The notes under the pieces: generated by a model
Told to the model about the DNA's origin: nothing
The model's input: only the letters and a program-made list of their open reading frames with translations
The model's database searches: none
Shown: in pieces, positions 18,994 through 51,860 of the stretch
Layout: each line of letters starts with the position of its first letter
Position numbering within the stretch: the stretch's first letter is position 1
Translations under genes and position numbers: made by a program
NCBI RefSeq assembly: GCF_004365175.1
Contig: NZ_SOCE01000001.1
Coordinates: 3,293,403-3,357,402, forward strand
DNA length: 64,000 bases
Source of the DNA: Kribbella voronezhensis
Lineage (GTDB): Bacteria > Actinomycetota > Actinomycetes > Propionibacteriales > Kribbellaceae
Direction of reading: 5' to 3'

Positions 18994-19021
18994 GCGTTAC
19001 TACCACCCGGAGGTGGTTGGC

Positions 19022-19108
19022 GGTGGCGGAGGGATTTGAACCCTCGGAAGGGGGGTACCCTTCACGCGCTTTCGAGGCGCGCTCCTTCGGCCGCTCGGAC
19101 ACGCCACC
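19022..19108 (-). tRNA. tRNA-Ser(CGA)
   Basis: An 87-nt type II tRNA on the minus strand. The acceptor arms GGTGGCG and CGCCACC pair; the T-arm contains GGGTTCAAATCCC; a long variable arm is present; and the anticodon loop is CTCGAAA, giving anticodon CGA for UCG serine codons. CCA is not encoded. It lies 13 bp downstream of tadA on the same strand. Confidence 0.97.
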
Positions 19109-36625: not shown

Positions 36626-37983
36626 CCGGCGCCGGCGAACTCCGGCCATTCCGCAGCCGGCTCGTCGGCAGCCCAGAGCACATAGCCGTCCGGCCGTACG
36701 ACGACCCGCGCCGCCTCCGCCCAGTCCGACAGCTCGAGCCGCAGGTGCCGCCCGGCTCGGAGCAGGTCCGCGACGCTCGTCGTACCGAGGTCGAGGTCAG
36801 GCATCCGCTGCCCGGTCAACGCATGCTCGCCGGGCAGCTCGTAGCGAACACCGAGCCCGGACACGAGGCCGGTCAGCCATTTGTTTGCCGAAGGCAACTG
36901 CATTAGTTCGACGAAGATCTCGCGCAGGCAGGCGACGTCGTCGTCGGGGACCATCAGAACGCCTTGTGCGCGGGTGTTCGCCAGCACGGCCGCACCGACC
37001 GGATGCCGCTCCGCGTGGTAACTGTCCAGCAGATCCACGCCGTCCTTCAGGTATGCCGCGAGTTTCCAGCCCAGGTTGAACGCGTCCTGCAGGCCAAGGT
37101 TCATCCCCTGCCCACCGGTCGGCGAGTGGATGTGCGCGGCGTCGCCCGCCAGGAACACCCGGCCCTTCCGATACTGCGCAGCCTGCCGAACCGCGTCGGT
37201 GAAGCGCGAACCCCAGCGGAGTTCCTGCAGCACCACCTCGTCGCCGTACCAGCCGGTCAGCGCCCGCGCCACCTCGTCGAAGGTGACCTCGCCGGTCAAT
37301 CCCTGCTGATCGGGCCCGGTGAAGAGCGCACGGTAGACGCCGTCGCCCAGCGGCAGGATCGACATCACCGCGCCCTCGCGCGGCACGAGCGACGGCAACT
37401 CCCAGCCGCGGGGGCCGGGCCTGTTGTCCGCCACGACGACATCGGCGACCACCGCCGAGAACCGCCCGTCCCGGCCAGGAAAGGCGATCTCGCTCAGTTT
37501 CCGGACCGCACTCCGGCCCCCGTCGCACCCCACCACCCAGCCCGCGCGGATCGTCGTACCGCCGTCGAACTCCGCCAGTACGCCGTCGTCGTCCTGGGTC
37601 AGCCCGGTCAACGTCAACCCACGGGCGACCTGTACGCCGTACGTCGCGAGGTGCTGCTCCAGGTGCTCCTCGATGCGGGCCTGCGGAATCCCCAGCTGGC
37701 AAGGGAATCGCGTCTCCCAGCTCGCGTACTCCAGCGGAACCTCCAGCCCCGCGAAGTGACCGGCCGGAAGCCGCTCGACCACCTCGTCCAGGAGTTGCTC
37801 CAGCAACCCGCGCGAGTGCAGGATCTCCGCCGACCGCGGCTGGATCGTCAAGGCCTTCGACTGCCCGGAGCGCCGAAGCGCCTGGTCCACGACGATGATC
37901 GGCACTCCTGCGAGGGTGAGCTCGGCGGCGAGCAGCAATCCGGTCGGACCCGCGCCGACGATCAGGACGTCAGGATTCTTCAT
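36547..37983 (-). CDS. FAD-dependent aromatic monooxygenase
   Basis: The 478-residue class A flavoprotein has the FAD-binding GxGxxG (VLIVGAGPTGLLLAAEL), the DG motif (GCDGGRSAVRKL) and the GD motif (GDAAHIHSPTGGQGMN), with a thioredoxin-like C-terminal part (VVRPDGYVLWA). It would hydroxylate an aromatic ring or polyketide with NADPH. It overlaps the upstream VC0807-like gene as ATGA, in an operon with a TetR regulator. The last 26 residues (from about LTVRSKASAA) lie over the end of the glycosyltransferase gene and have no family match in my view, so the usual stop may have been lost. Confidence 0.9.
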   Translation of the reverse strand: MKNPDVLIVGAGPTGLLLAAELTLAGVPIIVVDQALRRSGQSKALTIQPRSAEILHSRGLLEQLLDEVVERLPAGHFAGLEVPLEYASWETRFPCQLGIPQARIEEHLEQHLATYGVQVARGLTLTGLTQDDDGVLAEFDGGTTIRAGWVVGCDGGRSAVRKLSEIAFPGRDGRFSAVVADVVVADNRPGPRGWELPSLVPREGAVMSILPLGDGVYRALFTGPDQQGLTGEVTFDEVARALTGWYGDEVVLQELRWGSRFTDAVRQAAQYRKGRVFLAGDAAHIHSPTGGQGMNLGLQDAFNLGWKLAAYLKDGVDLLDSYHAERHPVGAAVLANTRAQGVLMVPDDDVACLREIFVELMQLPSANKWLTGLVSGLGVRYELPGEHALTGQRMPDLDLGTTSVADLLRAGRHLRLELSDWAEAARVVVRPDGYVLWAADEPAAEWPEFAGAGQALTVRSKASAAAVTPDSERSFAAR

Positions 37984-38621
37984 GCGAGCAGGTCGTTCTT
38001 CCTGGAGTAGACGATCATGAATCCGTAGAGGACCACGAAGAGCGCGATCCATTGCGCCGTCGTGACACCCGGCACCGCATCGAGCGGCAGCGTGTAGGCG
38101 ATCACCACGCGCACCACGGCGTCGAGAACCAGCCCGACACCCCAGACCGCGGTGATCAGCCGGAGCCCGTACCGGAAGCGGGGCTCGGTGTCCCAGCGGC
38201 TCGCCCAGATCTCACCGCCACCCTTGCCCCGCTTGGCCTCGGCGATGCCGCGCCCGATCGAGAGCAGCAGCGGCTTGCCCGCGAGCAAGGTGCCGAGCAT
38301 CCAGAACCCGCACAGCGCGGTGATCACACCGTCCTTGGCGAGCAGCATCCGCGGGCTGTCCATCGCCAGCGAAGCGATCGTCCCGAGGGCGAGCGCGCTG
38401 ATCATGAAGATCGCCAGCCAGTCCACCTTGGCGCCTCTGACCAGCGAGTACGCCGTACGGACGACCGGGATCACCGAGCCCGTCAGGGTCGCTCCGACCA
38501 CTCCCACACCGGCCCGGCGCAGGCCGTAGAAGATCAGCAGGGGCACGACAAGGTCGATCAGAACCGGGGCGAGCACGGCACCCCAGCGTGCCTTGGGTTT
38601 GTTGTCTGTCACGGCACTCAT
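37980..38621 (-). CDS. VC0807-family multi-pass membrane protein
   Basis: This 213-residue protein has about six membrane helices: VLIDLVVPLLIFYGLRRAG, GATLTGSVIPVVRTAYSLV, WLAIFMISALALGTIASLAM, GVITALCGFWMLGTLLAG, a segment near LRLITAVWGVGLVLDAVVRV and the end IALFVVLYGFMIVYS. It fits the VC0807 family, which is unstudied. It sits between tetR and the FAD monooxygenase, with ATGA overlaps at both ends. The organisation suggests import, export or sensing of the monooxygenase substrate, without direct evidence. Confidence 0.8.
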   Translation of the reverse strand: MSAVTDNKPKARWGAVLAPVLIDLVVPLLIFYGLRRAGVGVVGATLTGSVIPVVRTAYSLVRGAKVDWLAIFMISALALGTIASLAMDSPRMLLAKDGVITALCGFWMLGTLLAGKPLLLSIGRGIAEAKRGKGGGEIWASRWDTEPRFRYGLRLITAVWGVGLVLDAVVRVVIAYTLPLDAVPGVTTAQWIALFVVLYGFMIVYSRKNDLLA

Positions 38622-39214
38622 GGCTGCTCCGCCCGGGTGGCTCGATGGAAGGTCTCGGTCAGTTCGTCGGCGCACACCTGCGGATCGGCGCCGGCGACCA
38701 GTCGCCCGGCGACCGCGTCGATCGCGGCACGCAGAGCGGCAGCCATCAGCGTGGAGTCGAACGTCCGGAAGTCGCCCGACCGCTGGCCGTCGTCGAAGAG
38801 GCCTGCCAGCCGTGCGATCGCGCCGTCGCTCTCCTCCGACGGGACCGGCACCTGCCCGAACACGATCTGCTGGACCGCGCGGACGTGATCGGGCCGGCTG
38901 GCGATGAACTCGACGTTGGAGCGGATGTACGCCGCCAGTTTGGCCGCCGGACCGGCGGCCGCGTCGAGCGCCGGACGCATGAAGGCGCCCGCGTCGGTGG
39001 TGACGCGATGCAGCACTTCGGCGAGCAACTCGTCCTTGGAGGTGAAGTGGTACGAGATCAGCCGCTTGCTGCTGAGCCCGGCAACCTCGCAGATCGCGTC
39101 GTACGACGCGGCCGCGTAGCCACGCTCGGCCAGCACCGCAATGGTCGCCTCGACGATCTGGTCCCGACGGGCCGCCGTACTGCCGGCCCGGTCTCCGGCT
39201 TGTTTTATCCGCAT
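38618..39214 (-). CDS. TetR-family transcriptional regulator
   Basis: The 198-residue repressor has the TetR helix-turn-helix (YDAICEVAGLSSKRLISYHF, about residues 38-57) and an all-helical ligand domain. It is the first gene of a three-gene operon with a VC0807 membrane protein and an FAD monooxygenase, with ATGA overlaps. The promoter upstream (39221-39249) contains repeats that it may bind, which gives self-repression of the whole operon. The inducer is unknown, perhaps the monooxygenase substrate. Confidence 0.92.
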   Translation of the reverse strand: MRIKQAGDRAGSTAARRDQIVEATIAVLAERGYAAASYDAICEVAGLSSKRLISYHFTSKDELLAEVLHRVTTDAGAFMRPALDAAAGPAAKLAAYIRSNVEFIASRPDHVRAVQQIVFGQVPVPSEESDGAIARLAGLFDDGQRSGDFRTFDSTLMAAALRAAIDAVAGRLVAGADPQVCADELTETFHRATRAEQP

Positions 39215-39249
39215 GTGTAAAAGTTATCCGACTGTGTAACTCGCGTCAA
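39214..39249 (-). promoter_or_regulatory. Promoter and repeat-type operator of the tetR operon
   Basis: On the minus strand TTGACG (39249-39244) and TAACTT (39226-39221) are 17 bp apart, just before the start codon. AGTTA/TAACT (39222-39226 and 39237-39241) form a dyad, and TGTGTAA is repeated directly at 39214-39220 and 39233-39239. Confidence 0.65.
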
Positions 39250-39302
39250 GCGGCACCACCCGACGTGGAGGATCGGCCTGGATCGGCGGCGAACGGGGAG
39301 AG

Positions 39303-41084
39303 TCAGGCCGGTGGGCGGCGGGTGCGGCGGGTGCGGTGGTGGGAGGTGCGGGCGCGGCGGCGTACCGGGCGACGGGGGCCTACCAGGCGGGGACCGGCGA
39401 GGCGGTCCTCCAGGCGGCGGGCCTCGCGGCGGATCGGCTGGGCGACGTACTCGCCGAGGATGACGCCCGATGCGAGCGCGACACCGATGGCGACGGCGGT
39501 GGCGAGGCTGACGATGCCGGTCAGGTTGCCGTTGCTCATCACCTCGAACAACCCCTTGTAAATGGTCAGTCCAGGCAGCAGCGGCACCGTGCCGGAGACG
39601 ACCACCACCAGGGGCGGTACGCCGAAGCGCCGACCCAGGGAGTACCCGCCGAGCCCGACCACGAAGGCCGCCGCGGCCGTCGACCAAGCGGGCCCGAACT
39701 GCGCCCGCGCCATCATCGTGAACACCAGTGATCCGGCCGCGCCCACGACGGCGACCGGTAGCAGCGACCGCAGCGGCGCGTACGAGGCGAACGCGAAGGC
39801 GACCGCCATCAACGCGCCGGAGCCGACCATGATCGGCAGGTTCGCGAGCTTGATCGTCTGCGCCTCGATCGCGACCGGCAGACCGAACCTGATCCCCAGC
39901 GCGAGGCCGAGACTGACGCCCGCGATGATCCCGCCGGTGAGCAGCATCGCCTCCAGACTGCGGGCCGCCGCGGTCACGTAGTACCCGGTGATCGCGTCCT
40001 GGACGGCACCGGTGAGGGCGATCCCGGCGAGCAGCATGATGATGCCTGCGGCAACTACCAGCGATGGCTTCACCGGCGCGTGGACGGCGTACAGGATCAA
40101 CGCGACCGCGGTGGCGACGAAGGCGCCGGCGACCTGCTGGTAGAAGGCGGGCAGGCGCTGGCGGTTGAACCAGCGGTTGCTGAGTTCGATCAGGATCGCC
40201 GTGACGACGGCGACGAGGGTGATCAGCCAGCCGCCGCCGAGCAGCAGGGTCGCGCCGCCGGCCATCACACCCCAGGCGAGCACCGAGCTCCAGCGCGGGA
40301 ACGGCGGACCGGCCGAGACCATCCGGGCGAGTTCACGACTGGCATCGGCGCGGGTCACCTCGCCGCGCGCGAGCCGCTGGACGAGCTGGTCGACGTCGGT
40401 CAGCCGGGAGAAGTCCTGACCCCGGTACCGGACCACCCGCATGTGTGTTTCCGGGGCGACGTCGGGCGCCGCCTGGTAGGAGATGGCGATCGAGGTGAAC
40501 GTGATGTCCACCTCACACCCGCGCAGTCCACAGGCAGCGGTCACGGACAGGATCGTCGCCGTCGCATCGGCCGTCCCCGCACCGCTCGACAACACCACCT
40601 CACCGATCCGCAACGCCAGATCGAGCGTCCGGTACAACTCCCGCTGCCCATCCCGATCCCGATCATCCCGCCGCCGCCCGAACCCAACCCCCCGCCGCTC
40701 AGCAGTGTCTTCTGCCACCCCGCGATCCGCGTTCCCCTCGTCCCCACCGCCCGCACCATCCATCGAGCGCCGCCCGGCGACTTCCCCGACACCGCGGTCC
40801 GGGTTCCGCTCATCCCCACCATCCATCGAACGCCGCCCGGCGACTTCCCCGACACCGCGGTCCGCCTTCTGCTCGCCACCACCGACCGCACCATCCAGCG
40901 GCCGCCGCCCGGCGACTTCGCCTTCTGCTGCGGCAGGCTCGCCTTTCCTCGCCGCGTCTGCGTCCTCCCGCCGGCGCGCTTGCGTGCCTTGACTGGACGT
41001 GCGGGGGTGGCGCGGCTGGTTGGCTGCGATGGGGAGCTCGTTCAGTCGGGGGTGGTCGGTCGGCGAGTCGGGGGCCTCGGGCAC
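39303..41084 (-). CDS. ThrE-type threonine/serine exporter-family protein
   Basis: The conserved part begins near RELYRTLDLALRIGEVVLSS and covers a cytoplasmic DUF1212-type domain (SSGAGTADATATILSVTAAC, RVVRYRGQDFSRLTDVDQLV) and about ten membrane helices including SGTVPLLPGLTIYKGLFEVM. This is the fused ThrE architecture that exports threonine or serine or an unknown metabolite. About 150 extra N-terminal residues are Glu/Arg/Gly-rich and carry three repeats of GEVAGRRSMDG type. The start is uncertain: GTG 41084 has AAAGGAG close by; an ATG at 41141 is possible. The tail is Arg/His-rich. Confidence 0.82.
   Translation of the reverse strand: MPEAPDSPTDHPRLNELPIAANQPRHPRTSSQGTQARRREDADAARKGEPAAAEGEVAGRRPLDGAVGGGEQKADRGVGEVAGRRSMDGGDERNPDRGVGEVAGRRSMDGAGGGDEGNADRGVAEDTAERRGVGFGRRRDDRDRDGQRELYRTLDLALRIGEVVLSSGAGTADATATILSVTAACGLRGCEVDITFTSIAISYQAAPDVAPETHMRVVRYRGQDFSRLTDVDQLVQRLARGEVTRADASRELARMVSAGPPFPRWSSVLAWGVMAGGATLLLGGGWLITLVAVVTAILIELSNRWFNRQRLPAFYQQVAGAFVATAVALILYAVHAPVKPSLVVAAGIIMLLAGIALTGAVQDAITGYYVTAAARSLEAMLLTGGIIAGVSLGLALGIRFGLPVAIEAQTIKLANLPIMVGSGALMAVAFAFASYAPLRSLLPVAVVGAAGSLVFTMMARAQFGPAWSTAAAAFVVGLGGYSLGRRFGVPPLVVVVSGTVPLLPGLTIYKGLFEVMSNGNLTGIVSLATAVAIGVALASGVILGEYVAQPIRREARRLEDRLAGPRLVGPRRPVRRRARTSHHRTRRTRRPPA
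40726..40925 (-). repeat. In-frame repeats of about 63-72 bp in the exporter N-terminus
   Basis: Three copies of a unit with CGCCGCCCGGCGACTT and, in two, GACACCGCGGTCCG encode GEVAGRR(S/P)(M/L)DG and a Asp/Gly-rich spacer. The period stays a multiple of three, so the frame is kept. Confidence 0.8.
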
Positions 41085-41195
41085 CGGGCTCCTTTCGTTG
41101 ATGGCAACGACGCTAACGCCCGCCGGTACGCCGTACCGCATCCGCCTGCCCACCCCACCGGGTGCAACCGCTTTCCGCCAGCGATTCCCGACAGG

Positions 41196-41224
41196 TTGAC
41201 TCGTCGTGACCGCCCACCTAAGGT
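41196..41224 (+). promoter_or_regulatory. Promoter of the cupin/DUF993 operon
   Basis: TTGACT (41196-41201) and TAAGGT (41219-41224) are separated by 17 bp, about 50 bp before the cupin start. This fits a housekeeping promoter. Confidence 0.6.
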
Positions 41225-41282
41225 TGCCCACACAAGCCTTGGAAAGCCCTTTCCCAGGCGTCGGCCGGACCAGGAGGCGACC

Positions 41283-42014
41283 ATGTGCGAGTACGGCCCA
41301 CCCGCCGCCGCCCTGCCCGGCGGCATCGGCATCTCGCTGCTCAAGGTCTACGACATCGAGGCCCCGGACGGCCTGGTCGGCGGTACGCCGCACGTCCACC
41401 TCGCCTGCTCCGAGGGGTACTACGTGATCGCGGGCTCCGGCGCGGTCCAGACGCTCAACCCGAAGGGCTTCACCGAGACCCCGCTCCAGGCCGGCACCGT
41501 CGTCTGGTTCGACCCGGGCACGATCCACCGGCTGGTCAACAACGGCGGCCTCCAGATCCTCACCCTGATGTCCAACTCCGGCCTCCCCGAAGCGGGCGAC
41601 GCCGTACTGACTCTCCCGCCCGAGCACCTCACCGACCGCGACACCTACCTCAAAGCGACCACGCTGACCGGCGAGGGCGAGGCCCGGACCCCCTCCGCGA
41701 TGGCCCGGCGCAACCTGGCGCTAGAGGGCTTCGCCGTACTGCGAACCGCGTACGACGCCGAGGGTCCGTCCGCCCTCGACCCGTTCTACGAGGCCGCGAT
41801 CGGCATCGTCCGTCCGCAACTCGCGGACTGGCGGCGGCGCTGGGAGCAGGGCGCTCGCCGCCTCGCCGACGAGACCGGTGCCGCCCTCGACGCACTGGAG
41901 ACCGGCCAAGCGCCGTACCTGCGGACCGCCGAGCTCCACCAACTCCCAGCACCGACCGAGCTGGGCCGGCACGGCATGTGCGGCCGGCTCGATGTCTACG
42001 ACCTGAACACCTGA
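41283..42014 (+). CDS. Cupin-domain protein
   Basis: The 243-residue protein has a cupin fold in its first 110 residues: GGTPHVHLACSEGYYVIAGS is motif 1 with the metal His and Glu, and GTVVWFDPGTIHRLVN is motif 2. The C-terminal half is helical (YEAAIGIVRPQLADWRRRWE, LADETGAALDALETG). It may be a sugar-binding or isomerising cupin. AGGAGG stands 6 bases before the ATG. It lies 58 bp before the Gfo/Idh/MocA gene and probably heads that operon, which favours a role with the same sugar; not proven. Confidence 0.85.
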   Translation: MCEYGPPAAALPGGIGISLLKVYDIEAPDGLVGGTPHVHLACSEGYYVIAGSGAVQTLNPKGFTETPLQAGTVVWFDPGTIHRLVNNGGLQILTLMSNSGLPEAGDAVLTLPPEHLTDRDTYLKATTLTGEGEARTPSAMARRNLALEGFAVLRTAYDAEGPSALDPFYEAAIGIVRPQLADWRRRWEQGARRLADETGAALDALETGQAPYLRTAELHQLPAPTELGRHGMCGRLDVYDLNT

Positions 42015-42072
42015 TCCCGCGAACCGCCCGATAGAGACCAGCGCAGACGAAGCGCCGAAGAGAGGTAGCACA

Positions 42073-43236
42073 GTGAACGATCGACGCATCGGCATCGTGA
42101 TGAACGGCGTCACCGGCCGGATGGGTCTGCGCCAGCACCTGGAGCGCTCCATCGTGGCGATCCGCGAGCAGGGCGGCATCCCGGCCGCCGACGGGACGAT
42201 GATCATCCCCGAGCCGATCCTGGTCGGCCGCAACGAGCTCAAGCTCAAGAACATCGCGGACACCTACGGCCTGACCCGGTGGACGACGGACCTGTCCGAG
42301 GCGCTGGCCGAGCCGGACGTCGAGATCTACTTCGACTCGCAGCTGACCCAACTGCGGGAGAAGGGCGTCCGCGCCGCGGTCGAGGCAGGGAAGGCGATCT
42401 ACTGCGAGAAGCCGATCGCGGAGGGTCTGGACGCTGCGGTCGACCTCGCCCGGCTCGTCCGGGACTCCGGGCTGAAGAACGGCGTCGTCCAGGACAAGCT
42501 CTCGCTGCCCGGCCTGCGCAAGCTCAAGCGGCTCGTCGACGGCGGCTTCTTCGGTGAGATCCTGTCGGTGCGCGGCGAGTTCGGTTACTGGGTGTTCGAG
42601 GGCGACTGGCAGGAAGCGCAGCGGCCGGCCTGGAACTACAAGGCCGAGGAGGGCGGCGGCATCGTCGTCGACATGTTCTGCCACTGGCGGTACGTGCTCG
42701 ACCAGATCTTCGCCCCGGTCAAGTCGGTCTACTGCCAGGGCGCGACCCACATCCCGACCCGGTACGACGAGCAGGGGCAGCCTTACACCGCGACGGCCGA
42801 GGACGCGGCGTACGGCGTCTTCGAGCTCGAGGGCGGCATCATCGCGCAGCTCAACTCGTCCTGGACCACGCGCGTGTTCCGGGACGAACTGGTCGAGTTC
42901 CAGGTCGACGGGACCGAAGGCAGTGCGGTCGCCGGGCTGCGGAACTGCCGCGCCCAGCACCGCTCGGCGACGCCGAAGCCGGTGTGGAATCCCGATCTGC
43001 CGGCGGCGTACTCGTTCCGCGACCAGTGGTCGGAGGTGCCGGACAACGAGGTGTTCGACAACGGGTTCAAGGTGCAGTGGGAGATGTTCCTGCGGCATGT
43101 CGTCGACGACGCGCCGTTCACCTGGGACTTCGTCGAGGGCGCCAAGGGCGTGCAGCTCGCCGAGCTGGGTCTGCAGTCGTGGCGCGAAGGCCGCAAGCTG
43201 GAGGTCCCGGCGCTCGACATCGAGACGCGGGCATGA
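42073..43236 (+). CDS. Gfo/Idh/MocA-family oxidoreductase
   Basis: The 387-residue NAD(P)-dependent dehydrogenase has an N-terminal Rossmann fold (RRIGIVMNGVTGRMG, TTDLSEALAEPDVEIYFDSQ) and the family lysine in YCEKPIAEG. The C-terminal half is the usual alpha/beta sheet domain (EEGGGIVVDMFCHWRYVLDQ). Family members oxidise sugars, inositols or their acids, often at C3. The GTG start has GAGAGG upstream. It is translated with the DUF993 gene (ATGA overlap). The operon suggests degradation of a keto sugar or polyol. Confidence 0.9.
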   Translation: MNDRRIGIVMNGVTGRMGLRQHLERSIVAIREQGGIPAADGTMIIPEPILVGRNELKLKNIADTYGLTRWTTDLSEALAEPDVEIYFDSQLTQLREKGVRAAVEAGKAIYCEKPIAEGLDAAVDLARLVRDSGLKNGVVQDKLSLPGLRKLKRLVDGGFFGEILSVRGEFGYWVFEGDWQEAQRPAWNYKAEEGGGIVVDMFCHWRYVLDQIFAPVKSVYCQGATHIPTRYDEQGQPYTATAEDAAYGVFELEGGIIAQLNSSWTTRVFRDELVEFQVDGTEGSAVAGLRNCRAQHRSATPKPVWNPDLPAAYSFRDQWSEVPDNEVFDNGFKVQWEMFLRHVVDDAPFTWDFVEGAKGVQLAELGLQSWREGRKLEVPALDIETRA

Positions 43237-44477
43237 GCCTGTCGCTGCGGCTGCCCCGCGACGGCGGCCTCGAGACCTACGAACTGACCGGTACGCCGGT
43301 TGCCCAGGGCACCTATGAGCCGGCCCGCAGCCGACTCGCGTTCGCCGCGGCGCACGTGGTCGCCGACCCGCTCGGCGACAACTCGCCAGGCGCTCCCGCG
43401 GCGATCGACTGGGAGCACACCCTCGACTTCCGCCGGCACCTGTGGTCGCTCGGCCTGTCGGTCGCCGAAGCCATGGACACCGCCCAGCGAGGCATGGGCC
43501 TGGACTGGCCGGCCACCCAAGAACTCATTCGCCGCTCCGCGGCGGAAGCACCTGCTCGCTCCTCCGTCGCGGGAACTGAGGGGAGCTCCGCCGACGCGGG
43601 AAGCGCCGCGGGCGCGGGGAGCGCCGCAGGCGCCGGGGTTTTGGAGAAGCGGATTGCAGTGGGGGTTGGGACGGACCAACTGGCGCCCGGGGTGCATCCG
43701 CTGGATGCGGTGATCGCCGCGTACGAAGAGCAACTGGCATTGGCCGAGGAAGTCGGTGCTCAGCCGATTCTGATGGCCAGCAGGGCGTTGTGTGCCGCGG
43801 CTACTTCTCCGGACGACTACCGGAAGGTCTACGACCGGTTGCTGGGGCAGTCGTCCCGGCCGGTGATTCTGCACTGGCTCGGGTCGATGTTCGATCCGGC
43901 GCTGGAGGGCTACTGGGGTGGCGATTCGCTCGACACCGCGGCCGATGTCGTCGTCGAGCTGATCAACGAGAACGTGGCGCACGTCGACGGCATCAAGGTT
44001 TCGTTGCTCGATGCAAGCAAAGAGATTGCCTTGCGCAAGCGACTTCCCGACGGCGTACGGCTCTACACCGGTGACGACTTCAACTACCCGGAGCTGATCC
44101 AGGGCGACGGCGACCGGCACAGCGACGCGCTGCTCGGGATCTTCGCGGCGATCGCTCCCGCCGCCGCGGCAGCGTTGAAGGCGCTCGACGAGGGCGACGT
44201 CACGGCGTACGGGCAGATTTTCGCCCCGACGGTCCCGCTGGCCCGGCAGATCTTCTCGGCGCCGACGTACTACTACAAGACCGGAATCGCCTTCCTGGCC
44301 TGGCTGAACGGGCATCAGCCCGGTTTCGGCATGGTCGGCGGACTGCAGACCGGCCGCTCGCTTCCGCACCTGGCCGAGACGTTCCGGCTGGCCGACGCGG
44401 CCGGCGTACTGACGTCGCCCGAGCTGGCCGTGGATCGCTTCCGCAAGCTGCTCATCGTGGGTGGGGTCGACGCGTGA
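43233..44477 (+). CDS. DUF993 (dihydrodipicolinate synthase-like TIM-barrel) protein
   Basis: The 414-residue TIM-barrel protein of the DUF993 family has WEHTLDFRRHLWSLGLSVAE, VGVGTDQLAPGVHPLDAVIA, ILHWLGSMFDPALEGYWGG and INENVAHVDGIKVSLLDASK. The lysine in HVDGIKVSLLD is in the place of the Schiff-base lysine of class I aldolases, so an aldolase-like cleavage is likely but unproven. An Ala/Gly/Ser-rich insert (about residues 106-136) separates two conserved parts. The gene overlaps both neighbours (ATGA, GTGA), so Gfo/Idh, DUF993 and isomerase are one unit. Confidence 0.88.
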   Translation: MSLSLRLPRDGGLETYELTGTPVAQGTYEPARSRLAFAAAHVVADPLGDNSPGAPAAIDWEHTLDFRRHLWSLGLSVAEAMDTAQRGMGLDWPATQELIRRSAAEAPARSSVAGTEGSSADAGSAAGAGSAAGAGVLEKRIAVGVGTDQLAPGVHPLDAVIAAYEEQLALAEEVGAQPILMASRALCAAATSPDDYRKVYDRLLGQSSRPVILHWLGSMFDPALEGYWGGDSLDTAADVVVELINENVAHVDGIKVSLLDASKEIALRKRLPDGVRLYTGDDFNYPELIQGDGDRHSDALLGIFAAIAPAAAAALKALDEGDVTAYGQIFAPTVPLARQIFSAPTYYYKTGIAFLAWLNGHQPGFGMVGGLQTGRSLPHLAETFRLADAAGVLTSPELAVDRFRKLLIVGGVDA

Positions 44478-45289
44478 ATCGCTACAGCCTCAACCAGGCA
44501 ACCACGAAGTACTGGTCGTTGGAGGACGTCGTGGCGGCCAGTGCCAAGGCCGACCTGTCCTGGATCGGCCTGTGGCGCGAACCGGTGCAGGAATACGGCG
44601 TGGAGCGGTCGACGAAGCTGGTCACCGACGCCGGGCTACGCGTTTCCTCCTTGTGCAGAAGCGGTTTCTTCACCTCTACCGATGCTGCCGAGCGTCAGGC
44701 CAAGATCGAGGACAACCGGCGCGCGATCGACGAAGCGGCTGCCCTCGGCACCGACGTGCTGATCCTGGTCAGCGGCGGATTGCCTTCCGGCTCGCGCGAT
44801 CTCGACGGCGCCCGGGCGATGGTCCGCGACGGCATCGCCGAGCTCGCGCCGTACGCGCAGGAAGCCGGAGTCAGGCTTGCCATCGAGCCGCTGCATCCGA
44901 TGTTCTGCTCGGACCGCTGCGTGGTGTCGTCGCTCGGTGGCGCCCTCGACCTGGCCGAGCAGTTCCCGGTCGAGCAGGTCGGTGTGGTCGTCGACGCGTA
45001 TCACCTGTGGTGGGACGCCGACGTCTACCGGCAGATCGAGCGCGCCGGCGCCCGGATCTGCTCGTACCAGGTGAGTGACTGGGTCGTCCCGCTGCCCGCC
45101 GACACCCTGCTCGGCCGCGGCATGATGGGTGACGGCTCGATCGAGCTGCGCAGACTCCGTGAGGCGTGCGACGCGGCCGGGTACGACGGGCCGGTCGAGG
45201 TCGAGATCTTCAACCAGGACCTGTGGAACGCACCCGGCCAGGAAGTCTTCGACCTGGCCCTGGCCCGGTACGGCGAACACGTCGCCTGA
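44474..45289 (+). CDS. Sugar phosphate isomerase/epimerase-family protein
   Basis: The 271-residue AP endonuclease-2-type TIM barrel has metal ligands in AIEPLHPMFCSDRC, VVVDAYHLWWD, YQVSDWVVP and VEVEIFNQDLW. Family members isomerise or epimerise sugars and, in recently described cases, cleave 3-keto glycosides. GTG start overlapping the DUF993 stop. It is the third member of the co-translated unit. A second, only distantly similar isomerase follows at 45360. Confidence 0.88.
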   Translation: MNRYSLNQATTKYWSLEDVVAASAKADLSWIGLWREPVQEYGVERSTKLVTDAGLRVSSLCRSGFFTSTDAAERQAKIEDNRRAIDEAAALGTDVLILVSGGLPSGSRDLDGARAMVRDGIAELAPYAQEAGVRLAIEPLHPMFCSDRCVVSSLGGALDLAEQFPVEQVGVVVDAYHLWWDADVYRQIERAGARICSYQVSDWVVPLPADTLLGRGMMGDGSIELRRLREACDAAGYDGPVEVEIFNQDLWNAPGQEVFDLALARYGEHVA

Positions 45290-45359
45290 GCCGGTCGGTG
45301 CCGGGTGCCCTGAGTTGCCCGAAGCAACGATGCTCTCTCTCGAAGGAGACTGACTCCCC

Positions 45360-46118
45360 ATGAGCGACCGGACCATCCCCGCCGACGGCATCGGCATGCA
45401 TCTCTACACGATGCGCGAGGCTCTTGCCGACGACTATGCGGGCACCCTCAAGCGGCTGGCGGAGATCGGCTACCGGACGGTCGGGGTGAGCGGCCGGTTC
45501 GGTCACTCGGCCGCGGAGATCCGTTCCTTCGCGGACGACGCCGGCTTGCGGATCGTGCTCGAGCACGTCGGATACAACCGGCTCGCCGACGATTGGGACG
45601 GCGCGCTGGCCGACGTACAGGCTCTGGGCGGGAAGTGGATCGTCGTGCCCTCGCTGCCGACGGAGCTGCACACGCCCGAGGGGTTCCGGGAGGCGGCGGC
45701 CGCCTTCACCGTGGCGGGACGCGCCGCGCGGGAGGCCGGGCTGCAGTTGCTCTTCCACAACCACGGGCACGACTTCGCCGAGGTCGACGGACAGGTGCTG
45801 TTCGACATCCTGCTCGACGAGGTGGAGCCTGAACTGCTCGGTTTCGAGCTGGACCTCTACTGGGTGGTCAACGGCGGTAAGGATCCGGTTGACTACTTCC
45901 GGGACCACCCCGGCCGCTTCCCTGCGCTGCACGTCAAGGACATGGCCGCGGACGGCTCCTTCGAAGACGTCGGTGCCGGCCGGCTGGACTTTCCGGCGAT
46001 GTTCGCCCTGGCCGAACGGGGTGGAGTCGAGCAGTGGCTGGTGGAGCACGACGCCCCGGCGGACCCTTGGGTCACTGCCGCGAGGAGCTATCGATCACTG
46101 GCCGAAATGAGGTACTGA
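45360..46118 (+). CDS. Sugar phosphate isomerase/epimerase-family protein (second)
   Basis: This 252-residue TIM-barrel protein has GMHLYTMREALADDYAGTLK at the start, then QLLFHNHGHDFAEVDGQVLF, the strand ELDLYWVVNGGKDPVDYF, and LHVKDMAADGSFEDVGAGRL with the acidic and His metal ligands. This group is close to sugar epimerases and IolE/IolI-like enzymes. Its ATG lies 70 bp past the previous stop, with GAAGGAG upstream, so it may be read with the operon or from a nearby start. Substrate unknown. Confidence 0.88.
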   Translation: MSDRTIPADGIGMHLYTMREALADDYAGTLKRLAEIGYRTVGVSGRFGHSAAEIRSFADDAGLRIVLEHVGYNRLADDWDGALADVQALGGKWIVVPSLPTELHTPEGFREAAAAFTVAGRAAREAGLQLLFHNHGHDFAEVDGQVLFDILLDEVEPELLGFELDLYWVVNGGKDPVDYFRDHPGRFPALHVKDMAADGSFEDVGAGRLDFPAMFALAERGGVEQWLVEHDAPADPWVTAARSYRSLAEMRY

Positions 46119-46311
46119 GCGTCGCCGGCGGCGGGTTTGGCCTATTGTCGTCACTGACAGCAGGTGAACGGTTGCCGTCCGGCGTCGTACGGCCGCGCAC
46201 CGGCGTGTCGGGAAGCGTTGTCCGTTCCCGCGGATCTGTCACTCTGTAAGGGGCCCTCCCACGGCGGGGTCCCGTGAGGCCGCCGATGCCGTGACGCCGG
46301 AGAGATCACAC

Positions 46312-47754
46312 GTGCAGAACGAGCCCACTGTGCGGATGACGGCTGTACGCCGTCTGTACGAGGTGAGCGCCCGGATGGGCGCCGGGCGAAGCCTGGCCGA
46401 AACCCTGCAGGCAGTGGTCGACGGTGTCGTGGACGGTCTCGGCTTCGGGATCGCCGTGCTGAACCTGCGACACCCCGACGGCAAGTTCGAGGTGATCGCG
46501 GTCGCCGGGTCACCCGAGGCCAAGAAGGCGCTGCTGGGTACGGTCAGCGCGGCCGACATCTTCGACGCCGAGTTCGACATCGCGGACAAGTGGGGCGGGC
46601 TCCGGTTCGTCCCGCACGAGCGGTTGCCGGAGGGCGAGGTGATCGGCTGGGTGCCGGAGATCCCGGTGCCGACCGACCCCGACGCGTGGCATCCGCTGGA
46701 CGCGTTGTTCGCACCGCTGCACTCGCCCGACGGCGAACTGGTCGGGATGTTGTCGGTGGACCTGCCGGAGGACCAGCGCAGGCCTGGACAGATCCATCGC
46801 GAACTGCTCGAGATCTTCGCCACCCAGGCCGGACTGGCGATCGACAAGGCCCGGCTGACCGACCAGTTGCTGGCCGAGAAGGCCCGGCTGGAAGCCAGCG
46901 AGACGACCTTCCGGCTGGTCTTCGAAGGGGCCGGCAACGGGATGGCCACGATCGCCTTCGACGGACCGGAGTCGGGCCGCATCCTGCGGGTCAACCACGC
47001 GTTCTGCCGGATCACCGGCTACACCCCGAACCAGCTGATCGGCACCGTCCTGGTCGACTACCTGCGCGAGGAGGACGCCGGCCAGACCAGTCGCGAGATC
47101 GAACTGCTCAGCGCCGGTCACGGACCGTACCGGTTCGAGCGGACGTTCCGGCGTACGGACGGCAACGACATCTGGCTCGGTGGCACCGCCGCGATCGTTG
47201 ACCAAGGCAAGGATCAGCCGCGGATCGTGCTGATCCAGATCGACGACGTGACAGCCCGCAAGGACGCCGAACGCGAACTGCAGCACCACGCGGCCCACGA
47301 TCCACTCACCGGCCTGCCGAACCGGCGACTCCTGCAGCACCGGTTCAACTCGGCACTGCAGCGATCGCGGCAGACCGGACGGCGCGGAGTGCTGCTCTTC
47401 TGCGATCTCAACCATTTCAAGCAGGTCAACGACAAGTACGGCCACGAGGCCGGCGACCGGGCTCTGCGGGAGATCGCGGATCGCCTACTCACCGAAGTAC
47501 GGCACGGTGACACGGTGGCCCGCCTCGGCGGCGACGAGTTCGCCATCCTCGCCGAAGACATCGACGGCGACGACCTCGACGTCCTGATGCGCCGCATCGA
47601 CGAGTCCATCAGCAAACCCCTCGACGGCATCGACGTCCCCGTCACCGCCAGCATCGGCACCGCCGTCGTCAGCCCCTACGCCTCCGACCTCAACGAACTC
47701 CTCCGCACCGCCGACAACGCCATGTACGAAGCCAAACGCCACCGCAGCCACTGA
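46312..47754 (+). CDS. GAF-PAS-GGDEF diguanylate cyclase
   Basis: The 480-residue cytosolic protein has a GAF domain (about 20-180: GFGIAVLNLRHPDGKFEVIA), a PAS domain (about 200-305: RILRVNHAFCRITGYTPNQL) and a GGDEF domain (about 315-478: LLFCDLNHFKQVNDKYGHEA, then the active site GGDEF). RHGD, five residues before it, matches the RxxD inhibitory site. It makes c-di-GMP in response to a small-molecule or redox signal. No EAL domain is attached. GTG 46312 follows GGAGAG by 8 bases and is preferred over an earlier GTG at 46291. Confidence 0.92.
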   Translation: MQNEPTVRMTAVRRLYEVSARMGAGRSLAETLQAVVDGVVDGLGFGIAVLNLRHPDGKFEVIAVAGSPEAKKALLGTVSAADIFDAEFDIADKWGGLRFVPHERLPEGEVIGWVPEIPVPTDPDAWHPLDALFAPLHSPDGELVGMLSVDLPEDQRRPGQIHRELLEIFATQAGLAIDKARLTDQLLAEKARLEASETTFRLVFEGAGNGMATIAFDGPESGRILRVNHAFCRITGYTPNQLIGTVLVDYLREEDAGQTSREIELLSAGHGPYRFERTFRRTDGNDIWLGGTAAIVDQGKDQPRIVLIQIDDVTARKDAERELQHHAAHDPLTGLPNRRLLQHRFNSALQRSRQTGRRGVLLFCDLNHFKQVNDKYGHEAGDRALREIADRLLTEVRHGDTVARLGGDEFAILAEDIDGDDLDVLMRRIDESISKPLDGIDVPVTASIGTAVVSPYASDLNELLRTADNAMYEAKRHRSH

Positions 47755-47768
47755 ACACAAGAACCCCG

Positions 47769-47795
47769 CCCACGCATGGGTCAAGGCGGCGTGGG
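47769..47795. terminator. Hairpin between convergent genes
   Basis: CCCACGC and GCGTGGG form a 7-bp stem with a 13-nt loop, 14 bp after the GGDEF gene stop and before the convergent gene end. It is a modest candidate, without a U-tract. Confidence 0.45.
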
Positions 47796-47850
47796 ACACG
47801 GAGGTCACCCGGTCTCGGCCGACGTGTCGTCAGAACAACCAGCGCTGCAT

Positions 47851-48354
47851 TCAGCCGATCATGGTGGTAGCCGTGGTGTACCAGGTGCTCGAACTGGCCG
47901 ACTTCATTCCGGTGGAGGCGTACAGGATCGTGCGGTGGCTCGTCCCGGCCGCGCCGTCCAGGGAGGTATAGGCGAAGCTCGAGGAGTAGTACTTCACCGT
48001 CTCGGTCAGCGACGCGCTCTTGGTGCTGAACTTGCCTGACGACTTGGTGAGTACTTCTACGTGCAGCTTGACGACGTTGTTGTTGCCGACCGTGTTGCCG
48101 GTCTTCTTCAGGTAGGTGCACCATTTGTTGCTGCTGGCACCGGTCTTGCGCATCGTGCGGAGTTCGCCGATCTTGTTGCCGAAGCCGTCCTTGCGCAGGT
48201 CGACCACCTGCACGACCTTCTTGTAGCCCAGCGCCTCGCAGGCCTGCGCGTACTTGACCGGACCACCCGCAGCCTCCGCCGGAAGCGCGTTGACCGACAA
48301 CAACCCGACAGGCAGCGCGAACGCGCCGAGCGCAACCAAGATCTTCTTCGTCAT
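47851..48354 (-). CDS. Small secreted protein of unknown function
   Basis: The 167-residue protein has a clean signal peptide (MTKKILVALGAFALP onward, ending LPAEAAGG). The mature 138 residues contain two Cys (YAQACEALGY, NKWCTYLKKTG), many Ser/Thr/Lys and a strand-rich end (SFAYTSLDGAAGTSHR). I do not recognise the family. ATG 48354 has GGGG 5 bases upstream; an ATG one codon earlier is possible. Its neighbours, a GGDEF gene and a GNAT gene, give no clue. It may be a monocistronic exoprotein. Confidence 0.75.
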   Translation of the reverse strand: MTKKILVALGAFALPVGLLSVNALPAEAAGGPVKYAQACEALGYKKVVQVVDLRKDGFGNKIGELRTMRKTGASSNKWCTYLKKTGNTVGNNNVVKLHVEVLTKSSGKFSTKSASLTETVKYYSSSFAYTSLDGAAGTSHRTILYASTGMKSASSSTWYTTATTMIG

Positions 48355-48387
48355 CATGACCCCACCCTAGTGTCGGAAGAGTCCTAC

Positions 48388-48876
48388 TCAGGATCCAAGA
48401 GTGGTGAGGGCTTCGTCGGTGAGGCGGTAGGTGGTCCATTCTTCTTGGGGGCGGGCGCCCAGGGACTTGTAGAAGTCGAGGGCGGGGGTGTTCCAGTTGA
48501 GGACGGACCATTCGAGGCGTTCGTAGTTGTTGGTGACGCATTCCTGGGCGAGGGCGGTGAGGAGGGCCTTGCCGAGGCCGGAGCCGCGGTGTTGTGGGCT
48601 GACGAAGAGGTCTTCCAGGTAAATGCCGTGGACGCCGCGCCAAGTGGAGAAGTTGAGGAACCAGAGCGCGCAGCCGACCACCTCGCCTTCGGGTTCGGCC
48701 GCGGCGACGTGGCAGAAGACGGCGGGGGTCGGACCGAAGAGGGCAGTCTCCAGTTGGCTGGCCGTCAGCCGGCACTCGTCCGGTGCCCGCTCGTACTCAG
48801 CCAGTGCGTACACAAGATCCACGATCGCCGGTACGTCGGTCGGCCGGGCGCGGCGGATTCGGTCGTCGGTTTGCAT
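48388..48876 (-). CDS. Diamine/thialysine N-acetyltransferase-like GNAT
   Basis: This 162-residue GNAT is close in pattern to spermidine/spermine acetyltransferases: RARPTDVPAIVDLVYALAEY, LWFLNFSTWRGVHGIYLEDL, FVSPQHRGSGLGKALLTALA with the acetyl-CoA loop, then LEWSVLNWNTPALDFYKSLG. The likely acceptors are polyamines or amino acid side chains such as thialysine. ATG 48876 begins the conserved part. It stands alone 31 bp upstream of the secreted-protein gene on the same strand. Confidence 0.88.
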   Translation of the reverse strand: MQTDDRIRRARPTDVPAIVDLVYALAEYERAPDECRLTASQLETALFGPTPAVFCHVAAAEPEGEVVGCALWFLNFSTWRGVHGIYLEDLFVSPQHRGSGLGKALLTALAQECVTNNYERLEWSVLNWNTPALDFYKSLGARPQEEWTTYRLTDEALTTLGS

Positions 48877-48996
48877 GGCCTCATCCTGCCCGGTCACCGA
48901 TTGCCGGGGATTCATCCGCGGGTGGAACTCGTTTACCGCGGTGTTCACCTTGTGACTCGAGGCTGAGGGTCCGATCCGCTCACCGCAGGGTTCCCC

Positions 48997-50635
48997 ATGC
49001 CTGTTTCACGTCGTCGGTTCATTGGTTTCGGAGGCGCCGGTACTGCGGCGGTGCTGCTCGGGACCGGTGTCTGGGACGCCTCGACCACGTATGCCGCCCC
49101 GGCCGGCACCGGCAATCCGTTCACGCTGGGCGTCGCGTCCGGCGATCCGCAGTACAGCAGTGTCGTGCTGTGGACGCGGCTGGCTTTCGACCCGTACGCC
49201 GTCGACGGTCGCGGCGGGATGCCTGCCAAGCCGGTGCGGGTGGAGTACGAGGTCGCTCGCGACGAGCAGTTCCGGCACATCGTTCGCCGGTCGAGTGTCG
49301 TCGCGACGCCTGAGCTCGGCCACTCCGTCCACCCCGAGGTCAACGGGGCTGCCGGACCATGAGTACTACTACCGCTTCCGCACGGGCGGTGAGGTCTCGG
49401 CTGTCGGGCGTACCCGAACCACGCCGCATCCGTTCAGCTCACCCCGTGAACTGCGCTTCGCGTTCGCCTCGTGCAACGCCTGGCAGGACGGGTACTTCAC
49501 GGCGTACCAGCACATGGCCGACGAGGACCTCGACCTGGTCGTGCATCTCGGCGACTACCTCTACGAGTCCGGTGTGAAGACCAACAAGCGCGGTGTCGTG
49601 ACGGACCCACGATTCCACACGGAGACCTTCGACCTGGCGCGCTACCGGCTGCAGTACTCCCTCTACAAGACCGAGGCGCCCCTGCAAGCCGCGCACGCCG
49701 CGCACCCGTGGATCCACACCTTCGACGACCACGAGGTGGAGAACAACTGGGCCGGCGACCTGTCACAGGCCGATACCGAGCCGGACCAGGACCCCGTCGT
49801 CTTCCGCACGCGCCGGGCCCAGGCGTTCCAGGCGATGTACGAGAACCTGCCGCTGCGGCACGCGCAGATGCCCTCGGGGCCGGACATCCGGTACCACCGG
49901 CGTCTCCCCTACGGCCGCCTGGCCGACTTCACCATTCTCGACACCCGCCAGTACCGCTCGGACCAGCCCTGCGGTGACGGCGACTCGTCGACCTGCGACG
50001 ACCGGTTCGACCCGGACAACACGATGCTCGGCGGCAAGCAGCGCGAGTGGTTGCTGAACGGCTTCCGTACGTCGAACGCCCGCTGGCAGGTGATCGGCAA
50101 TCAGACCCCGATGGGACAGACCGACTGGACGCCGGGCCCGGAAACCCATGTCTGGCTGGATCCCTGGGACGGATATGTTGCCGAGCGCAACAAGGTGCTC
50201 GCGGCGGCGCAGGACAGCGGCGTCCGCAATCTCGTCGTCATCACCGGCGACCGGCACCAGAACTACGCCCTCGAGCTCAAGCGCGATTTCGCCGATCCCG
50301 CTTCACCCACGGTCGGCACCGAGTTCGTCGGTACGTCGATCACCAGCGGCGGCGACGGCGCGGACACCACCGACCAGGGTCAGCAGTTCCTCGCCGCCAA
50401 TCCGCACCTCAAGTTCTTCAACTCCCAGCGCGGCTACGTCCGCGTCACCGCCGACAAGCACCAGTGGCGATCGGACTTCCGCGTCCTCCCCTACGTCAGC
50501 AAGCCGAACGCCCCGATCACCACTCGCGCCAGCTACCCAGCTACGTGGTCGAAGATCGCGAACCGCACGTTCAGCTGGACTGAGATTTCGCGGAAACACC
50601 GACAGGGGGTTGTCGCGGCGGTCGCCGAGAGTTGA
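48997..50635 (+). pseudogene. PhoD-like alkaline phosphatase, disrupted by a +1 frameshift
   Basis: The N-terminal part (48997-49344) reads [12 protein letters not shown], a twin-arginine signal, then [20 protein letters not shown], the PhoD N-terminal domain. At the G run 49345-49348 one extra base shifts the frame and it stops at 49360-49362. Without one G, the frame goes straight on into [20 protein letters not shown] and the whole metallophosphatase domain (FASCNAWQDGYFTAY, HLGDYLYESG, FDDHEVENNW, ITGDRHQNY) to 50635. The full enzyme would be a Tat-exported, Ca/Fe-dependent phosphodiesterase/phosphatase of about 546 residues. Sequencing error, real mutation or programmed frameshifting are all open. 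Confidence 0.88.
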
Positions 50636-50676
50636 GGAGTCGGGACAACCCCCGGCGCGAAACGGAGAGGGATGAA

Positions 50677-51069
50677 ATGCCTGTAGTGAACAGCATTGCC
50701 TGGTTCGAGATCGGCACCGACGACCCGGCGGCCGCCGAGCGGTTCTACGGTGACGTGTTCGGCTGGAAGGTTGCCCACGACGACACGGTGAGCAGCGACC
50801 CGGCGTACCAGTTCTTCGTCACCGGCGACGGCGAAGGGATGCGCGGTGGACTCTTCGCGACCCAGGGCGAGCTGGCCAACTACGCGGTCTTCACCGTCCT
50901 GGTCGACGACGTCGATGCGGCCTGCCGCAAGACCGAGGCTGCCGGCGGCAAGATCCAGCGGGGGCCGCAAGTCAATACCGCCGGAGTGAGGTTCGCGCAC
51001 CTGCTCGATCCGGCCGGCAACCAGTTCTCGGTGTTCACCCCGCCGGTCAGGCCAGCACCAGCCGGCTGA
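50677..51069 (+). CDS. VOC/glyoxalase-family protein
   Basis: This 130-residue protein has the betaalphabetabetabeta fold of the vicinal-oxygen-chelate superfamily. The start is SIAWFEIGTDDPAAAERFYG, then DVFGWKVAHDD, and the end FAHLLDPAGNQFSVFTPP. A single fold of this size normally forms a dimer around a metal or ligand. Function not assigned; relatives include detoxifying and resistance proteins. ATG 50677 follows GGAGAGGG. The gene converges with the WYL regulator, overlapping by 23 bp. Confidence 0.87.
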   Translation: MPVVNSIAWFEIGTDDPAAAERFYGDVFGWKVAHDDTVSSDPAYQFFVTGDGEGMRGGLFATQGELANYAVFTVLVDDVDAACRKTEAAGGKIQRGPQVNTAGVRFAHLLDPAGNQFSVFTPPVRPAPAG

Positions 51070-51748
51070 TCTTCCCGTCAGGGATGTCGAGGTCCTCTCG
51101 GCGCAGCGAACGCGGCGCGGGTGTTTCGGCGGTGACCGTGACGGAGGTGATGCGGTCGGTCCGGAAGACCCGCACGGCATCCCGGCGCCGGCACCAGGCG
51201 ATCAGGTACCACTGGGCGGCCTTGCCGACATAGCCGAGCGGCTCGATCTCGCGGGTCGTCACGGCACCGGCGCGATCGGCGTACGCGATGCGCAGGACGC
51301 GGCGGGTGGAGAGTGCGTCAGCCACCAGCCGCGGTACTGCGGTCACGGGCTCTGCCTCGTCGGCAAAGAGGTGCACGCGCTCCGCCAGCTCGTGCGCCGC
51401 CGCGGCGTCGTCGGTCTGCATCGCGGCGACGAGCTTGCGCAGCGCCGAACCCGCCACCGAGCTGAACGGAGTACCGCCGAGCCGGCGCAGCCCCAGGGCC
51501 AGCGCGACGGCTTCGCCCGGCGTCAGGTTCACCGGCGGCAGCGTGCGCGCCTTGTCGAGGCAATAGCCGCCGGTGCGGCCCGCCTCGGCGTAGATCGGGA
51601 CGCCCGACTGCTGCAGAGCGCTGATGTCCCGCTCGATCGTGCGCACGCTGACCTCGAAGCGCTCAGCCAGCCGTCGCGCGCTCCGCGCCCGGGGCGCGAC
51701 CGCCCGGAGCTCCTCCACCAGGGCGTAGAGCCGGTCCGTACGATTCAC
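51047..51748 (-). CDS. YafY-type HTH/WYL regulator
   Basis: The 233-residue protein has a DeoR-like winged helix (AERFEVSVRTIERDISALQQ, about residues 28-47) and a WYL domain (REIEPLGYVGKAAQWYLIAW, with the W-Y-L triad) and a C-terminal strand-helix (ITSVTVTAETPAPRSL). WYL domains bind ligands such as single-stranded DNA or other molecules. GTG start. It is divergent from the aldo/keto reductase gene and overlaps the VOC gene tail by 23 bp. It may regulate the reductase. Confidence 0.9.
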   Translation of the reverse strand: MNRTDRLYALVEELRAVAPRARSARRLAERFEVSVRTIERDISALQQSGVPIYAEAGRTGGYCLDKARTLPPVNLTPGEAVALALGLRRLGGTPFSSVAGSALRKLVAAMQTDDAAAAHELAERVHLFADEAEPVTAVPRLVADALSTRRVLRIAYADRAGAVTTREIEPLGYVGKAAQWYLIAWCRRRDAVRVFRTDRITSVTVTAETPAPRSLRREDLDIPDGKISRLVLA

Positions 51749-51860
51749 CCCCTCAAGCTAGTCAGCCCCACCGACAGTTTGAGCATTCAGCAAATGAGCT
51801 GCTGGCTCTCAGTGGTTTTTACTGTTGGAAAGCTGAGTCGCTGTGCGGGAGGTTGGGAGT

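Follow-up and report, generated by a model that had tools for sequence, protein, structure and literature searches.

The 64,000-nucleotide stretch of the Kribbella voronezhensis genome analysed here (assembly GCF_004365175.1, contig NZ_SOCE01000001.1, positions 3,293,403–3,357,402; hereafter the window, in whose numbering positions are given) carries at 41283–46118 five genes, all on the plus strand, around a member of the DUF993 family (PF06187). Our data show that three of them are a real, widely conserved cassette: a Gfo/Idh/MocA dehydrogenase (Gfo; 42073–43236, GTG start, 387 amino acids), the DUF993 protein (43233–44477, ATG start, 414 amino acids), a putative Schiff-base lyase of the dihydrodipicolinate synthase (DHDPS) fold, and a TIM barrel of the AP_endonuc_2 family (isomerase 1; 44474–45289, GTG start, 271 amino acids). 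We give somewhat less than an even chance to the proposal that the cassette is catabolic, a ketone made by Gfo being cleaved at a C–C bond by DUF993 via a Schiff base while isomerase 1 does the rearranging. A first-pass annotation of this DNA had described all five genes as one possible sugar or polyol operon. Translations and Pfam bear out a one-directional run of a cupin, Gfo, DUF993 and two TIM barrels, in which four-base overlaps join genes two, three and four (ATGA at 43233–43236 and GTGA at 44474–44477). As an operon, however, it is the Gfo–DUF993–isomerase 1 core that is conserved, and the cupin and the second isomerase lie outside it.

Species-level counts refer to the best 80 of at least 585 confirmed relatives from a scan with one genome per species, and they favour relatives close to the window because only these 80 were fetched. 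Neighbour genes were located by tblastn with named queries in place of a crude clustering of called open reading frames (ORFs), which broke families apart and overlooked DUF993 at 4 of 89 loci. Gfo lies upstream and isomerase 1 downstream of DUF993, on the same strand, in 59 of the 80 species loci, and the same order is kept in all 20 same-genus loci examined (20 of the 37 other genus members were fetched). At one more locus (L097) isomerase 1 is present and the Gfo match is partial and 2 kb upstream, which places it outside the 59 full cassettes. In a tree of 64 proteins the cassette rows cover five phyla, Actinomycetota, Pseudomonadota, Bacillota, Chloroflexota and Gemmatimonadota, and of the named relatives at the fetched loci a Kribbella comes closest (80% identity; 86% over tree columns). 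All 38 genomes of the genus encode DUF993, the host genome (8.03 Mb, single copy) among them; in the phylum a profile search found PF06187 in 24 of 296 genomes, and it found none in 14 control genomes.

Alignments and a predicted structure place DUF993 in the DHDPS superfamily: its fold and lysine fit, its substrate-binding motif does not. The protein scores 594.5 bits against PF06187 over profile positions 2–382 (gathering cut-off 24). An AlphaFold2 model built from 35 sequences (pLDDT 90.1, pTM 0.89), the structure prediction that the first-pass annotation had suggested, is a DHDPS-type TIM barrel of the aldolase superfamily with Lys255 on its sixth strand (residues 251–257). Its top solved structure is 4DNH (SMc04132 of S. 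meliloti; Z 58.9, 58% identity over 383 residues), and the other 49 structures among the matches listed are DHDPS-family proteins (Z 30–32, rmsd 2.3–2.5 over ∼290 residues by VIA-align), with Foldseek E values of 1e-9 to 3e-8 for the matches listed after 4DNH. Profile alignment with DHDPS gave E 1.3e-4 and probability 54 with eight DHDPS rows, and E 3.5e-9 and probability 96 with larger sets (118 versus 38 sequences). Both alignments put K255, within G-I-K-V-S, opposite the DHDPS Schiff-base lysine, D-T-A-Q-R (residues 82–86, codons at 43476–43490) opposite G-x-x-G-E and H214 (codon 43872–43874) opposite the tyrosine.

Residue conservation follows the same pattern. It was counted over 118 tblastn rows, which are 116 distinct sequences (three rows, L022, L025 and L026, are one gene, and L001 is the window's own); row L023 ends before the residues counted over 117 rows. 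The predicted Schiff-base lysine (codon 43995–43997) is K in 117 of 117 covering rows and occupies the place of the class I aldolase lysine of the superfamily, so the possible Schiff-base residue picked out in the first-pass annotation proved invariant. Its conservation had been set beforehand as a test, and the lysine is kept even in a remote PF06187 match of 23–24 bits (L024, G294:C12:45295-46083) that tblastn did not recover and that was excluded from the 118 and aligned separately; it has G-N-D in place of G-D-D. This protein may belong to a sister family that stands between DUF993 and the rest of the DHDPS-type proteins. Two other hallmarks of the DHDPS/N-acetylneuraminate lyase superfamily (PF00701), whose barrel and sixth-strand lysine DUF993 shares, are absent. 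In DHDPS the GxxGE loop, with a G-E that is invariant in our DHDPS alignment (A2), holds the carboxylate of pyruvate, whereas all 118 DUF993 rows read D-T-[AS]-Q-R (D82, T83, Q85 and R86 invariant; residue 84 A in 104 and S in 14). The catalytic tyrosine of the fifth strand, Tyr133 in E. coli DHDPS, is likewise replaced by His214 in 117 of 117 covering rows, in which W215, D281 and D282 are also invariant, and ∼33 N-terminal and 18 C-terminal residues fall outside the structural match. The ketone taken by DUF993 is probably not pyruvate-like. A canonical dapA was considered and rejected, as this sole NCBIfam equivalog listed scores 11.6 bits against a cut-off of 206. It should be noted that residues ∼112–138 of DUF993 form a Gly/Ala/Ser-rich insert (pLDDT <50 over 114–137), with a comparable but shorter counterpart in just one (L030) of the 19 further rows of alignment A1, and that the one gene behind L022, L025 and L026 (G008:C1:379764-380957) is split over three adjacent matches, which suggests a frame-shifted copy or a sequencing error.

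The two partner enzymes look intact. Gfo (Pfam GFO_IDH_MocA_C3, 86 bits) has E112-K113-P114, D200 and H204 in 87 of 87 covering rows at ≥40% identity, which we take to be the E-K-P and D-x3-H catalytic residues of the Gfo/Idh/MocA family; against the NCBIfam levoglucosan dehydrogenase it reaches 51.2 bits (cut-off 650). Isomerase 1 (Pfam 135 bits) keeps the metal-site residues E138, D174 and E244 in 88 of 88 rows at ≥40% identity, with Q in 69 and H in 19 at residue 199, where Q presumably marks the hydroxypyruvate-isomerase type of metal site. It scores 37.8 bits against the hydroxypyruvate isomerase model TIGR03234 (cut-off 353.45), and its strong structure matches are 7VPF ('Xylose isomerase'), 3QC0 ('sugar isomerase') and 3JU2 ('uncharacterized protein SMc04130').

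In the pathway that we propose, the substrate of Gfo would be a derivative of a sugar, polyol or cyclitol, oxidised at a secondary alcohol group. DUF993 would bind the resulting ketone as a Schiff base on Lys255 and break it at a C–C bond by retro-aldol, His214 and nearby acidic residues replacing the DHDPS tyrosine. Isomerase 1, with its E-D-Q/H-E metal site, may act ahead of this cleavage or after it, interconverting a keto intermediate or product, and small aldehyde or hydroxyketone products could be drained by the aldehyde dehydrogenase, hydroxyacid dehydrogenase and glycerate kinase that stand near the cassette in some relatives. Our computations show the gene order and its conservation, the fold, the position of the lysine and the residue conservation, and from these we infer the Schiff base, the cleavage and the order of steps. 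The oxidation–isomerisation–aldolase route of the first-pass annotation is plausible and supported in part. That annotation had named two findings that would speak against its idea, DUF993 standing apart from sugar enzymes elsewhere and a lysine that is not conserved in the family; with the lysine conserved and sugar-enzyme neighbours in most relatives, neither describes the family overall.

Several results nevertheless weigh against C–C cleavage of a Gfo-made ketone. The neighbourhood search finds the sugar-type dehydrogenase and isomerase beside DUF993 at the 59 loci, but neither is adjacent at 20 of the 80, namely 19 rhizobial loci and one metagenome-assembled genome. The 20 cassette-less rhizobial rows (the 19 and one plasmid) make up one side of a single branch (SH-aLRT 93), and the simplest reading of this unrooted tree is that the cassette is ancient and gave rise to the rhizobial form. 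No curated NCBIfam equivalog scores above its cut-off for Gfo or isomerase 1. The DHDPS fold and lysine are also compatible with dehydratases, hydratases and decarboxylases. The remote match L024 has no counterpart of H214, W215 or the H-W-L-G motif, so that either it is a remote cousin with another function or H214 is not essential. Finally, importer types vary among relatives (sugar ABC, ribose-type ABC, NMT1/SsuA-type ABC, tripartite tricarboxylate) and hence do not point to one substrate, and the product-drain argument draws on a minority of loci, since glycerate kinase and hydroxyacid dehydrogenase are each found in 3 of the 80.

A more specific version of this proposal, which we offer tentatively and with clearly lower confidence, is that DUF993 could be a new class of class I aldolase in the DHDPS superfamily, whose Schiff base would form with a keto-sugar or keto-cyclitol without phosphate rather than with a pyruvate-type acid, and which would be a shared final module joined in evolution to various front ends. 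Besides Gfo/Idh, these would include a GMC oxidoreductase, a shikimate-dehydrogenase-like protein and a rhizobial operon. Variants without an adjacent Gfo do exist, so DUF993 is not tied to one dehydrogenase family: they carry a GMC oxidoreductase with Dabb, an SDR with acyl-CoA dehydrogenase and ETF, or, next to a CoA-transferase, a protein annotated ThiF that resembles shikimate dehydrogenase. The rhizobial operon is seen at L055 (3809–9758), where LacI, Gfo, CoA-transferase, enoyl-CoA hydratase and aldehyde dehydrogenase genes are divergent from a lone DUF993, and an annotated R. daejeonense plasmid has an identical gene set. An oxidoreductase gene is displayed in the neighbourhood of 13 of 13 annotated plasmid loci, a weak figure given flanks of 9–12 kb. 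The rhizobial operon, present also at L124 (2808–8753) and like loci, combines sugar with CoA chemistry in an unusual way and without an evident substrate.

If DUF993 is indeed a Schiff-base aldolase for ketones other than pyruvate, a very well-studied superfamily would gain a reaction class, oxidised sugars would have a phosphate-free cleavage route, and the label 'dihydrodipicolinate synthase family protein' that many DUF993 members bear could be corrected. The family is already known to Pfam and to structural genomics. Bacteria from soil and roots carry the cassette repeatedly, and every searched genome of the genus had it. Homologues of all three core proteins, of the same families and cassette, have solved structures: the Gfo/Idh protein 3OQB (532 bits to Gfo) and, from S. 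meliloti, SMc04132 (4DNH) and SMc04130 (3JU2, 244 bits to isomerase 1), named without function in the structure listings as 'Oxidoreductase', 'hypothetical protein' and 'uncharacterized protein'. At the locus of S. meliloti strain Ak57 the cassette is accompanied by an enolase-like protein, further Gfo proteins and an importer. A PhaR regulation table lists SMc04132, SMc04133, SMc04135, SMc04138 and SMc04139 without a function. The first-pass annotation knew of no reaction for DUF993, which fits our literature search: no reaction or assay for DUF993/PF06187 was found in the open PMC subset, which omits most subscription papers, so that an assay may exist elsewhere.

A different chemistry is suggested by the last gene of the window's run, isomerase 2 (45360–46118, ATG start, 252 amino acids; AP_endonuc_2, 53.5 bits), which begins 70 bases after isomerase 1. 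The first-pass annotation counted two isomerase/epimerase-type barrels, and both are indeed AP_endonuc_2 proteins, but the second, judged by its residues, resembles an O-glycoside beta-eliminase rather than an isomerase. It is homologous to AtOGE of Agrobacterium tumefaciens (8BVK, 92.8 bits), though it scores higher to 8TCD, 8TCS and 8TCT (103–113 bits). Its H133, H135, D165, H191 and E229 correspond to the metal and catalytic residues His132, His134, Asp163, His189 and Glu233 of AtOGE, with H133-N134-H135 (45756–45764) aligned from the metal ligand His132 to the catalytic His134. The first four residues are kept in 21 of 21 rows and E229 in 20 of 20 covering rows; 20 of the 21 rows are same-genus, and L035 and L165 appear to be one contig. 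AtOGE catalyses Mn2+-dependent elimination of the aglycone from 3-keto-phlorizin (PMC10628242). In a rival reading of the whole operon, oxidative deglycosylation (oxidation, beta-elimination, hydration, reduction) could yield a free sugar with its carbon chain uncut, isomerase 2 eliminating and isomerase 1 or DUF993 hydrating. The A. tumefaciens operon likewise pairs oxidoreductases with two 'sugar phosphate isomerases/epimerases' (PMC10628242), and the GMC protein of the pAO1 plasmid cluster, discussed below, is distantly pyranose-oxidase-like (62 bits, cut-off 545). We nevertheless consider deglycosylation unlikely as the function of the cassette. In the parts of PMC10628242 that describe that operon DUF993 is not named, a Schiff-base lysine is not expected in a simple hydratase, and isomerase 2, present in just 2 of the 80 species loci (L035 and L108, one of them a Kribbella), cannot define the core. 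On the C–C cleavage reading, the retained eliminase residues mean that in this genus, where the cupin and this protein have been added, the feed may be a 3-keto-glycoside.

The other chief rival besides deglycosylation without chain cleavage makes DUF993 an ordinary 2-keto-3-deoxy sugar-acid aldolase or dehydratase of the Dahms/Weimberg kind, working through a pyruvate-type Schiff base, and Gfo an aldose 1-dehydrogenase; this too we regard as improbable. The fold and lysine shared with the DHDPS superfamily would suit it, and so would the sugar cluster of pAO1 in Paenarthrobacter nicotinovorans. There a Gfo 59% identical to the window's adjoins DUF993, and two genes from DUF993 lies an aldehyde dehydrogenase (AldH) with a Gene Ontology term for D-xylose catabolism. 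The cluster also has a pyranose-oxidase-like GMC protein, a glycerate kinase and a ribose-type ABC importer, and tblastn found no isomerase 1 match in the fetched pAO1 stretch. Enolase-like proteins, whose family includes sugar-acid dehydratases, occur in 6 of the 80 loci and at the plasmid loci L027, L029 and L121, yet such neighbours are a minority; when two were scanned, one matched MR_MLE_C at 30 bits and one had no match. Against an ordinary sugar-acid aldolase stands the absence of both the GxxGE motif and the tyrosine from every covering row. In addition, three Nocardiopsis loci (L048 by Pfam, L057 and L103 by tblastn) carry a separate PF00701 protein and a mandelate-racemase-type enzyme beside the cassette.

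Less probable again is that the ketone is a keto-cyclitol of the inosose type, whose ring DUF993 would open or cleave by a Schiff-base retro-aldol. Gfo does match the NCBIfam inositol 2-dehydrogenase model (57.2 bits, cut-off 355) and solved scyllo-inositol dehydrogenases (63.8 bits), isomerase 1 resembles the IolO model (34.7 bits, cut-off 300), and one variant locus has the shikimate-dehydrogenase-like protein. These family scores, however, are far under the curated cut-offs, Gfo/Idh proteins act on many substrates, and the 13 annotated plasmid neighbourhoods contain no inositol-catabolism annotation. Chance adjacency we reject, and an inactive remnant is next to inconceivable, because the order is kept in 59 of 80 species loci, in five phyla and in 20 of 20 same-genus loci with all candidate catalytic residues intact; the one point in their favour is that a scan, a weak test in a high-GC genome, found no promoter- or terminator-like sites in the stretch.

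Neighbours in relatives give further, more diffuse clues. The absence of an adjacent transporter or regulator, noted in the first-pass annotation, is true of the window, where no importer or regulator was found next to the genes among ORFs of ≥120 amino acids at 36000–52000 or in Pfam scans of five flanking ORFs (an FAD-binding protein, a ThrE exporter, a GGDEF protein, a glycosyltransferase-like protein and PhoD), but it does not extend to many relatives: within 9 kb, LacI- or TetR-like matches occur in 69 and importer-like matches in 38 of the 80 loci, as homology matches and not proof of function. A divergent sugar-type permease match lies within the fetched 8 kb of 10 of the 20 same-genus loci, and at one of these 20 (L179), which is without isomerase 2, ABC-importer matches stand between the cupin and Gfo. 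The importer inside this operon is of the NMT1/SsuA type, which was typed by Pfam on L029 (6666–9391) and which tblastn finds with the cassette in distant taxa at nine of the 80 loci (L045, L050, L072, L077, L081, L084, L085, L095 and L104); one would not expect such an importer for a sugar, and it may hint at what the substrate is.

Drain-type neighbours hint at products but do not fix the substrate. Glycerate kinase occurs in 5 of the 13 annotated plasmid neighbourhoods (L030, L031, L032, L034 and L123), 2-hydroxyacid dehydrogenase in three Paenibacillus loci (one confirmed by Pfam) and one plasmid locus, and aldehyde dehydrogenase lies near DUF993 in pAO1 and in rhizobia. No single substrate family emerged from a Pfam tally of 116 hand-picked neighbour ORFs, most of them taken from 261 listed by a GC-position script, with L055, L051, L089 and the core genes excluded. 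Among the 25 commonest of the 132 families, LacI has 9 members, ABC_tran 7, AP_endonuc_2 6, Gfo 4 and 2-Hacid_dh_C 3.

The cupin-domain protein (41283–42014, ATG start, 243 amino acids; Cupin_2, 34 bits) and isomerase 2 are mainly genus-level additions, found in 16 and 19 of the 20 same-genus loci, respectively. Cupin relatives were detected in 6 of 198 genomes of the phylum, its own included, and on two plasmids they occur with a Gfo/Idh-type oxidoreductase and sugar-ABC genes, on one of them also glycoside hydrolases. At one same-genus locus (L181) Gfo and isomerase 2 each give a pair of separate tblastn matches, which are either split matches or duplications. Upstream in the window, the ThrE-like exporter ORF as called (39303–41627, minus strand) overlaps the cupin start at 41283, and its true start is probably further inside, because its ThrE match begins only at residue 336; the ORF at 38618–39214 (minus strand) was named TetR-like by eye only. 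Elsewhere, at 19008–19108, ARAGORN calls a tRNA-Gln (plus) and a tRNA-Ser (minus) on overlapping bases of opposite strands, one of which is probably false.

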